Source: Dolichospermum flos-aquae CCAP 1403/13F
GTDB taxonomy: Bacteria > Cyanobacteriota > Cyanobacteriia > Cyanobacteriales > Nostocaceae
Length of the DNA stretch: 64,000 nucleotides
Direction of reading: 5' to 3'
NCBI RefSeq assembly: GCF_012516395.1
Contig: NZ_CP051206.1
Location: forward strand, 496,001 to 560,000
Within the stretch, counting starts at the first letter, position 1. Every line of letters starts with the position of its first letter. A program made the position numbers and the translations under genes. Shown piece by piece: positions 51,498 through 53,416 of this stretch. The notes beneath the pieces were generated by a model. The model was not told the DNA's origin, made no database searches, and was given only the letters and a program-made list of their open reading frames with translations.

Positions 51498-51534
51498 ATT
51501 CCTCATCATTCACTATAAACAAATGATATGATAG

Positions 51535-51653
51535 TTTCTCGTTCCCATACTCTGTATGGGAATGAATTACGGAAGGCTCTGCCTTCATTGATACTAAGTC
51601 ACGGAGGCAGAGCCTCTCAGTAGCATTCCCAGTCGGAGACTGGGAACGAGAAA
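51535..51653. repeat. 119-bp inverted-repeat element, family D, copy 1
   Basis: The ends TTTCTCGTTCCCA and TGGGAACGAGAAA are exact complements. Internal palindromes (CCCATACTCTGTATGGG and GGCTCTGCC/GGCAGAGCC) suggest a cruciform. A second copy follows at 51675-51793, with one internal substitution. Confidence 0.9.
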
Positions 51654-51674
51654 TTCTACACAAAAATGTTCTCG

Positions 51675-51793
51675 TTTCTCGTTCCCATACTCTGTATGGG
51701 AATGAATTACGGAAGGCTCTGCCTTCATTGATACTAAGTCATGGAGGCAGAGCCTCTCAGTAGCATTCCCAGTCGGAGACTGGGAACGAGAAA
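51675..51793. repeat. 119-bp inverted-repeat element, family D, copy 2
   Basis: Same 119 bp and same orientation, 21 bp after copy 1. It ends 12 bp beyond the stop of the radical SAM gene, where it may act as a terminator or 3' barrier. Confidence 0.9.
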
Positions 51794-51804
51794 AAAATCC
51801 TTTT

Positions 51805-52851
51805 TTACACAGCAACAGACTTTCTTGATAAATTAGCACTAATTTCATCGCTACTGGGTAATGAAACTAAAGGACAACCTAATGTTTCAAAATCAAGGGT
51901 TTCAATTCCACGAACCCAAGGAGCAAAACGCCCTGGTATAAGTTTAAGCTGACCATCTGGCTGTAAAGTACCAACGTCATTACGTTCATCTGTAAGCGCT
52001 ACTGTACATTTATTAACTTTTCCGTTAGCACGAATAACTAAGGAGTTAGGACGTGCAGCATAACAAACATATTCCGCTGGTGGACTACCATCCTGTGGTG
52101 ATTTTAAATCATCACCAAATAATTTAGATTGAAGTATTTTATTAGCTGCTTCCTTCTCAGCTTCTGAAAAAACCTTGATTGAACTATCATTAGGTCCACC
52201 AAAATGCTCAATACCTTTAAAGAAAGCAGAGAACCTGGAATCAGGTAAAAATTCTTTTTTAATATCTTCCAACAAAGGATCAAGCAAGTTAAATGTATCT
52301 GGATTAAAATGAAGACGTAACAAGATAGAAACTGGTAATGAACTATCCCGTATTGCTAGTAAATTATTCCAAATTCGCTCAAATGTACTTTTACCATCTG
52401 CCCGAATCCGGCTCTGATCATGAATTTCCTTTGGTCCATCAAGGGAAATTTGGTAATGTGTAACCCCTACATTAGCTAAAGCAGAAGCAGTATTAATATC
52501 TAGTAAATAACCATTGGTTGTCATAGATCCTGAATACTGCAAATGAGAATTTTTTGCCGCTAAAGATGTAGCATATTCAGAGATATCTAAAACAATATCC
52601 TTAGCAATCAGGGGTTCACCACCAAACCAGGATAGGTTTAAAAAATTCAACTTTGAAGATCGTTTGTCTAAAAGAGCTTTAATACCTGAGATTACTTCAG
52701 GTTTCATTCTCCCTATGGAAAAATCTTCATAGCAATAAATACAACGAAAGTTACATTGTTCTGTTGGTAAAATAATTAATTCAAAAGCTTTATCAGATAT
52801 TAATCCCGCACGCACCAAGTTAGCTTGTTTTACAGTTTCTATTGTTGTCAT
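51805..52851 (-). CDS. Radical SAM enzyme with partial SPASM domain (putative RiPP maturase)
   Basis: A 348-aa radical SAM enzyme. The [4Fe-4S] motif is CNFRCIYC (Cys 33, 37, 40), with GGEP at 77-80 and SLDGPKEIHDQSRI in the barrel. The C-terminal part has CX13GX4C (Cys 263 to Cys 282), which matches the start of SPASM domains, then a single further Cys (326), so the usual CX2CX5CX3C block is absent. Maturases of this kind install thioether, C-C or other links on peptides. An upstream 60-aa ORF is the likely substrate. Shine-Dalgarno AAGG precedes the ATG. Products and the exact rSAM subfamily are not identifiable here. Confidence 0.82.
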   Translation of the reverse strand: MTTIETVKQANLVRAGLISDKAFELIILPTEQCNFRCIYCYEDFSIGRMKPEVISGIKALLDKRSSKLNFLNLSWFGGEPLIAKDIVLDISEYATSLAAKNSHLQYSGSMTTNGYLLDINTASALANVGVTHYQISLDGPKEIHDQSRIRADGKSTFERIWNNLLAIRDSSLPVSILLRLHFNPDTFNLLDPLLEDIKKEFLPDSRFSAFFKGIEHFGGPNDSSIKVFSEAEKEAANKILQSKLFGDDLKSPQDGSPPAEYVCYAARPNSLVIRANGKVNKCTVALTDERNDVGTLQPDGQLKLIPGRFAPWVRGIETLDFETLGCPLVSLPSSDEISANLSRKSVAV

Positions 52852-52889
52852 TTGACAAATTCCTTGTATTATTTTTTCGCTTGAAAATG

Positions 52890-52921
52890 CGATCGCTACA
52901 TTTATTATGTTGTAACGATCG
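52890..52921 (-). promoter_or_regulatory. Long hairpin between precursor and maturase genes
   Basis: CGATCGCTACA and TGTAACGATCG pair (11 bp with one wobble) around a 10-base loop, extended on both sides by GAAAAT/ATTTTC with one bulge. It could set a lower level of the maturase than of the precursor, a usual arrangement in RiPP operons. It contains a HIP1 octamer in part. Confidence 0.65.
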
Positions 52922-52938
52922 ATTTTCGAGTAAGCTAG

Positions 52939-53121
52939 TTATTTTTTAATTATGGTGCAACCACATTGTTTGACCTTATTGATAACAACAGTATCTTTAC
53001 CACCAACAACTATCATGTTAATTTCTTCAGGCTTTAACTCTTGAAGCGCCCCTGCTAATGCTGGATCATTTACTAGCAATTCTCCGTCTTCATTAATTTC
53101 AAAGATTTGAATGTTAGCCAT
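52939..53121 (-). CDS. Putative RiPP precursor peptide
   Basis: A 60-aa peptide. Residues 1-41 look like a leader: acidic, with DPALAGALQELKPEEINMIV and a Gly-Gly pair at 40-41 in the position of a cleavage site. Residues 42-60 (KDTVVINKVKQCGCTIIKK) would be a short basic core holding the only two Cys residues (53 and 55, a CGC). A strong Shine-Dalgarno (AAGGAG) sits upstream. The gene immediately downstream is a radical SAM/SPASM-type enzyme, and no known precursor family is recognised. A transporter or protease is not adjacent. Confidence 0.75.
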   Translation of the reverse strand: MANIQIFEINEDGELLVNDPALAGALQELKPEEINMIVVGGKDTVVINKVKQCGCTIIKK

Positions 53122-53237
53122 CTTCGTATTCTCCTTGGTTTTAAAAAATCTAGAAAAAATCGGAAACGTTGTACTTTTTCATTTCCTGACTACATCCTAT
53201 TAAAAATAAAAACATCTGTCTAGAGACTTAGACAAAA

Positions 53238-53416
53238 TAAAAGTGACATAATTGTTTCAGTTTTGTCACTTTCAATAGCTTGATGATAACAGCATTTTCC
53301 GCACAAATATCCGTAAATTTGCCCTTTTAGGTTGAGAATATCACTAAAAAGTAGACAATTACGGACTAAAAATAGCCAAAAAAAGGGACATAATTGCTGC
53401 AATTTTGTCACTTTTG
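53238..53416. promoter_or_regulatory. Two palindromic GTGACA...TGTCAC sites upstream of the precursor gene
   Basis: Site 1 (about 53238-53270) is AAGTGACATAATTG then a 5-base spacer then AGTTTTGTCACTTT. Site 2 (about 53391-53423) is AAGGGACATAATTG, a spacer, and AATTTTGTCACTTT. The two are direct repeats of the same 33-bp unit, about 150 bp apart, in the region upstream of the precursor start (53121). They could be operator sites or the ends of an old mobile element. Between them only a low-complexity ORF is seen. Confidence 0.5.

Follow-up and report, generated by a model that had tools for sequence, protein, structure and literature searches.

The window, a 64,000-nucleotide stretch of the 5.2-Mb genome of the cyanobacterium Dolichospermum flos-aquae CCAP 1403/13F, carries on its minus strand a gene for a 60-aa peptide, a stem-loop and a gene for a 348-aa radical SAM enzyme, in that order. 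Judged from sequence comparisons, the two genes almost certainly encode a RiPP precursor and the maturase that would modify it. The precursor begins with a short leader, predicted to fold as a β-hairpin, which recurs beside related enzymes, is followed in most relatives by an N-x-x-C core, and at some loci appears to reside on the N-terminus of the enzyme. Taken as a whole, the gene pair is probably of the ranthipeptide type, and the chemistry expected for the family would be of the already known ranthipeptide kind. The greatest novelty of the system would lie in the hairpin, which may be movable.

The gene pair and its compact enzyme

A sequence-only reading had described a compact RiPP locus consisting of a precursor with a Gly-Gly pair and a CGC core, and a radical SAM enzyme with a cut-down SPASM domain. 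Both open reading frames, the strong ribosome-binding site ahead of the precursor and the motifs CX3CX2C, C263-x13-G277-x4-C282, Gly-Gly and C53-G54-C55 were found exactly where that reading had placed them (Table 1), and its overall view of the locus is supported by the locus comparisons below. The pair is flanked by genes for what we take, from reading their sequences, to be a lipoxygenase-like protein and an ABC-F ATPase. Apart from the window peptide itself, no convincing copy of the precursor was found in its own genome, and the only own-genome match to the enzyme was a single distant protein (31% over 143 residues). Upstream of the precursor, in a region that can be aligned in sister species, lies a 37-nt direct repeat (86% alike; 53236-53272 and 53378-53414), and just downstream of the enzyme are two 120-nt copies of a palindromic repeat (99% alike; 51534-51653 and 51674-51793).

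Table 1. Features of the precursor–maturase gene pair, in window coordinates.
Feature	Position	Strand	Basis
Precursor peptide, 60 aa	52939..53121	-	ORF; leader refound in relatives by profile
AAGGAG ribosome-binding site, ahead of precursor ATG	53131..53136	-	sequence
Predicted leader hairpin motif, residues 4-22 (IQIFEINEDGELLVNDPAL)	53056..53112	-	model from distant loci
Gly40-Gly41, where the leader may be cleaved; one residue out of the -4/-7/-12/-15 register	52999..53004	-	
Core Q52-C53-G54-C55 (QxxC; NxxC in most relatives)	52957..52968	-	core comparison
Stem-loop in precursor/enzyme gap	52879..52935	-	predicted -22.2 kcal/mol for a 99-nt stretch (native sequence alone folded)
Compact radical SAM/Twitch-type maturase, 348 aa, no RRE	51805..52851	-	ORF; Pfam PF04055, 64.4 bits
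CX3CX2C radical SAM cluster motif (C33, C37, C40)	52732..52755	-	invariant in 12/12 enzymes
C263-x13-G277-x4-C282, first part of auxiliary cluster site	52006..52065	-	invariant in 12/12 enzymes
C326 (CPL), third auxiliary-cluster Cys	51874..51876	-	invariant in 12/12 aligned enzymes

The enzyme passed the general Pfam Radical_SAM model, matched no Pfam SPASM model, and fell into no more specific family in Pfam or NCBIfam. Its best NCBIfam match, TIGR04463 (rSAM_vs_C_rich maturase), reached 143.3 bits against a cut-off of 525, and the PapB ranthipeptide model NF047865 reached 97.2 bits against 340, so that no named thioether family claims the enzyme. The nearest NCBIfam models were mostly those of peptide maturases, including PapB and other Cys-peptide maturases, and matches in the PDB included CteB (5wgg; E 1e-14) and SkfB (6efn; E 2e-5). 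With the first strand of the radical SAM domain starting after about 24 residues, there is no room for an RRE, and no RRE-like gene was noticed in the ORF lists surrounding the pair. The window pair thus lacks the fused or nearby RRE that is usual in ranthipeptide maturases, a class counted as RRE-dependent in the description of RRE-Finder (PMC7470986).

C263, C282 and C326 are kept throughout the aligned compact enzymes. C326 aligned with the fourth Cys of the CX2CX5CX4C block of the full-length cyanobacterial enzyme L040, and the same CPL is also present in the full-length Deinococcus enzyme L162. In the alignment with L040, the compact enzymes were without the N-terminal region, CX2CX5C and the last SPASM Cys. 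By comparison with anSME, the kept cysteines are presumably the ligands of auxiliary cluster I and the lost ones those of cluster II, and the resulting Cys set, suited to one auxiliary cluster only, fits an enzyme of the Twitch type. The later SPASM Cys block, reported as missing by the sequence-only reading, is indeed gone as far as CX2CX5C and the last Cys are concerned, but one Cys, followed by Pro, is retained; likewise the domain is shortened as claimed, but Twitch type is the better name for it than cut-down SPASM. The Twitch domain is described as a SPASM domain reduced to one cluster, and the Twitch cluster of MoaA as offering an open site for the substrate (PMC6231123). A similar open site may be able to hold a substrate Cys in the window enzyme.

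At E 1e-40 or better, the family yielded relatives of the enzyme in 19 of 217 genomes (its own included), the genus none in its 15 other genomes searched, and a draw from the phylum beyond Nostocales 2 of 386 genomes, again including its own. An order-level search at 1e-20 gave 21 of 388 genomes, with more distant full-length enzymes included. Outside the cyanobacteria, relatives were found in Mycobacterium ahvazicum (41%), in a Micrarchaeota contig (38%), among viral contigs, and in 10 plasmid records from Streptomyces, Acetobacter, Sinorhizobium, Bradyrhizobium and Deinococcus, whose annotation of them goes no further than radical SAM protein. In a prophage-like contig (L080, 4965-6162), a compact enzyme and a hairpin/NxxC peptide adjoin terminase, portal and head genes. 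Enzyme copies that were broken or cut (L010/L039, L012/L041 and L068/L079, each pair being the same locus, and L085) were dropped before counting, as were duplicates (L083, L029, L027, L056, L058 and L166). The L039 hairpin peptide was included in the cyanobacterial hairpin model, and L088, in which the enzyme frame is cut, was excluded from the trees while its peptide was kept in the hairpin models. No published description of a family combining compact enzyme and hairpin leader was found among titles and the opening parts of abstracts, which falls short of proving novelty in print.

Leader hairpin and core signature of the precursors

Small ORFs beside the enzymes share a leader segment close to I-x-[IV]-[DN]-x-x-G-x-[VI]-[VI]-[VI]-x-[ND], followed by a variable, Cys-bearing core. 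The segment would fold as a β-hairpin, and peptides with it were found in Nostocales, Streptomyces, Mycobacterium, rhizobia, Acetobacter, Micrarchaeota and the prophage-like contig; the loci show what is expected of a RiPP pair, a leader that is conserved and a core that varies, next to a modifying enzyme in one genome after another. An independent hairpin model, built from 10 segments at distant loci (two of which, L077 and L078, are cyanobacterial, with enzymes only 45–47% alike), was run on 3263 targets. All 13 of the closer cyanobacterial precursors outranked every unrelated sequence, the window peptide being found at E 0.027. The recurrence of the hairpin across loci is more than chance.

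With a model of all 25 segments, which is partly circular in having been trained on most of the peptides that it finds, a hairpin peptide was detected at 24 of the 28 loci that have a related compact enzyme without an N-terminal hairpin (the exceptions being L084, L086, L087 and L089) and at none of the seven loci with a hairpin on the enzyme. The conservation of the peptide beside homologues of the enzyme, on which the sequence-only reading had staked its case, was thereby borne out. Among 62 control loci there were three matches at E 0.5 or better, two of them genuine-looking Deinococcus peptides. The window peptide had no family match in Pfam or NCBIfam and no leader of the Nif11 or NHLP type, in keeping with its earlier description as unfamiliar, and the leader profile gave nothing significant against the PDB (best E 0.35).

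The Deinococcus peptides are encoded on plasmids (L162, 781-975; L164, 776-1066) together with full-length RRE/SPASM-like maturases, and end in NIYKCG or NIYRCG; in L164, a lantibiotic dehydratase and an LLM oxidoreductase are found nearby. Both plasmids rule out that the hairpin is confined to RRE-less enzymes. No hairpin peptide was found in the stretch around the full-length cyanobacterial L040. That the hairpin is a piece of a lost RRE is not proposed here, as the 25 hairpins and eight N-termini from RRE regions did not align (probability <1%). Precursor candidates at L161 (2161-2397), L086 (4690-4905), L087 (4615-4908) and L089 (4671-4901) have N-termini that look like Sec signals by eye, so that some lines may export their peptides without cleavage at Gly-Gly. 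The small ORF before the compact enzyme of L084 (4714-4899) appears AbrB/MazE-like and ends in an NCTC segment.

Cores were listed by hand from ORFs beside the enzymes; L087 was left out because its core could not be delimited, and L084, with its AbrB-like look, is a doubtful member of the first list. In that list, N-x-x-C occurred in 22 of 29 cores, against 7.3 (sd 2.2) after shuffling of the non-Cys residues, and none of 5000 shuffles was as high. Asn stood at −3 for 27 of the 58 Cys in these cores, compared to 2 to 14 at the other offsets tested. In later cores, picked by the hairpin (in L081, L082 and L080 after NxxC had been noticed), it did so for 14 of 22 Cys, against 3.2 expected (0/10000 shuffles), and the core of L082 has five NxxC units. 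In the plasmid cores, Asn at −3 (7/18 vs 1.8 expected, p 0.001) was as common as Asn at −5 (8/18), and both Deinococcus peptides have NxxxC. The seven of 29 cores without NxxC are those of the window peptide, L073, L035, L072, L070, L030 and L031, the Mycobacterium and Micrarchaeota cores being among them. The CGC core of the sequence-only reading is thus present in the window peptide, but the signature that recurs in relatives is N-x-x-C, and the window peptide, with QCGC, does not itself carry it, its core being a QxxC member of the NxxC-type series. The Gln variant recurs as QCQC in L076, though the L076 peptide also has NxxC.

In NxxcA of Streptococcus orisratti, a Cβ thioether is described between Cys23 and Asn20 (PMC8326336), installed by NxxcB (PMC13361665). 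From the core comparison, a thioether involving the residue at −3 is a likely product in the family, and a less likely one for the window copy. The pair might also be a real maturase pair with a different Cys chemistry, either an α-carbon thioether, as in an SkfB-like sactipeptide, or some other radical modification of Cys or its surroundings. A radical SAM and Twitch layout is the one described for the sactisynthase SkfB (PMC6231123), which was also among the PDB matches; however, the fixed Asn at −3 fits an NxxC ranthipeptide bond, and the RRE carried by SkfB is missing here, making such chemistry unlikely.

Enzyme-borne hairpins, export genes and the slot in sister species

At seven close cyanobacterial loci (L035, L036, L037, L038, L070, L071 and L072), the enzymes have longer, leader-like N-termini (e.g., NDRITIDQNGKVLVNDT). 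The cyanobacterial-leader model detected six of the seven enzyme-borne hairpins, at E 2.3e-4 to 3.6, the last two being weak; that of L072 was not detected by this model, and none of the other 23 enzymes was among its best 60 matches listed. At six of the seven loci the precursors have Cys cores, lack the hairpin and carry Nif11- or NHLP-type leaders, the leader type having been assigned by a model over cut-off for L036 (Nif11) and L072 (NHLP) and by eye for the others; L038 lies too near a contig end to show a precursor. The same six loci, and none of 12 other close rows, contain X362, a 350-aa gene (L036, 10365-11453, and related loci) that matched nothing in Pfam or NCBIfam. In a tree of 33 enzymes, placement of the hairpin needs two changes, and the same was found with 21 rows; forcing the seven loci together was marginally rejected (p-AU 0.0405). 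The hairpin sits on the precursor or on the enzyme, the two together not having been seen, and it has probably moved more than once. Tentatively, the hairpin could be a movable part, carried by the precursor in most lineages, that acts on the enzyme either in trans or in cis, with X362 bringing in the foreign Nif11/NHLP leaders and the RRE-less Twitch enzyme making Asn/Gln-Cys thioethers.

Exporter genes of the NHLM type (HlyD and a C39-peptidase ABC transporter) were found beside 12 of the 19 close relatives, and three transporter genes at L036 pass NHLM models. ParA-like, DUF7005, cNMP-binding and HAMP genes also recur beside close relatives; a literature search gave no paper on DUF7005. None of these genes, nor the exporter, was seen around the window pair, and DUF7005 was not found in the window genome by a search in which no control matched. 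The genome has seven C39 matches, of which the five loci examined were at most 31% identical to the cluster transporter; no exporter orthologue was seen. The Gly-Gly pair was correctly noted at residues 40-41 by the sequence-only reading, but is one residue off the hydrophobic register of four of the six other leaders compared, as is that of the sister peptide of G703. With no exporter seen next to the pair, low identity of the C39 loci and a shifted register, it is uncertain that the window peptide is exported.

The ABC-F gene was found in all 16 genomes of the genus. Three sister genomes (G704, G246 and G703) have the same upstream region and start codon as the window, but what follows is a different Gly-Gly peptide and no maturase; of the enzyme gene, G286 retains just the final 107 bases (window 51805-51911). 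In sister species, Gly-Gly leader peptides of this other kind stand in the slot at L145 (824-1000), L151 (3916-4098) and L152 (4011-4169) (IWPLYN..., WIYYTPYGYAWR...). One edge of the variable slot falls at the 120-nt palindromic repeat copies. The locus appears to behave as a slot for changing peptide cassettes. A simple insertion in the window was set aside, since the 3′ end of the enzyme gene survives in G286 and the others hold different peptides, and either state may be the older one.

Such turnover could mean that the copy in the window is decaying. It would then be a relic without its exporter, in which Gln stands in place of Asn and Gly-Gly has shifted, and which sister species have lost or replaced. 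The absence of the enzyme from the 15 other genomes searched in the genus, the 3′ remnant and the other peptides in the slot are in its favor, but both frames and the ribosome-binding site are intact, the catalytic and auxiliary Cys are retained, and the Gln variant recurs. The dN/dS of the enzyme against L026 is about 0.19 (0.124/0.664), which indicates that the enzyme line has been under constraint. A relic thus appears quite improbable.

Proposed mechanism and related systems

In the ranthipeptide-type reading that we prefer, the leader hairpin of the precursor would bring the substrate to the RRE-less radical SAM enzyme, where a 5′-deoxyadenosyl radical would abstract a hydrogen from the side chain three residues before the core Cys (mostly Asn; Gln52 in the window). 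The core Cys, which the open site of the three-Cys auxiliary cluster may keep in place, would close a thioether ring, linking C55 to Gln52 in the window peptide. In the cyanobacterial relatives, the product would be cut after Gly-Gly and exported by the C39/NHLM transporter, while the window peptide would leave through a transporter encoded elsewhere in the genome. MoaA and BtrN are described as radical SAM/Twitch enzymes with small-molecule substrates (PMC6231123), but that the window enzyme targets a small molecule or another protein, with an incidental peptide, is highly improbable, as hairpin peptides adjoin it in several phyla and the nearest named models are mostly peptide maturases.

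The family resembles the Streptococcus ranthipeptide system NxxcA/NxxcB in the N-x-x-C core of most relatives and in a radical SAM maturase with an auxiliary cluster domain; a thioether from Cys to Asn Cβ is reported for that system (PMC8326336, PMC13361665). NxxcB is counted among the SPASM enzymes (PMC9012708), whereas the window enzyme is of Twitch type and without an RRE, and the core is NxxC in NxxcA but QxxC in the window. SkfB shares the radical SAM core and Twitch domain, but is described with an N-terminal RRE and an α-carbon bond (PMC6231123). By sequence, the nearest named or solved relatives are the PapB/freyrasin and SCIFF (CteB) maturases; however, the window enzyme falls below the cut-offs of both families, and PapB and CteB have SPASM domains and an RRE. 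PapB is described as linking Cys to Asp or Glu (PMC9413430). The TIGR04463 model is longer than the window enzyme at both ends (match 72-356 of 438). NHLM export with Nif11/NHLP precursors, present at relatives such as L036 and L072, is absent around the window pair, and the short hairpin leader of the window type is neither Nif11 nor NHLP.

If the proposal is correct, these would be undescribed, taxonomically scattered enzymes for thioether peptides that work without the usual leader-binding domain. Their leader, recognisable by a short motif, would allow precursors to be mined, and the occurrence of that motif on substrate or enzyme would make leader recognition directly testable. A small, RRE-less enzyme may also be a handy tool for peptide stapling. 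In a movable hairpin, nature would have its own equivalent of leader-fused RiPP enzymes, able to adopt other precursor families.
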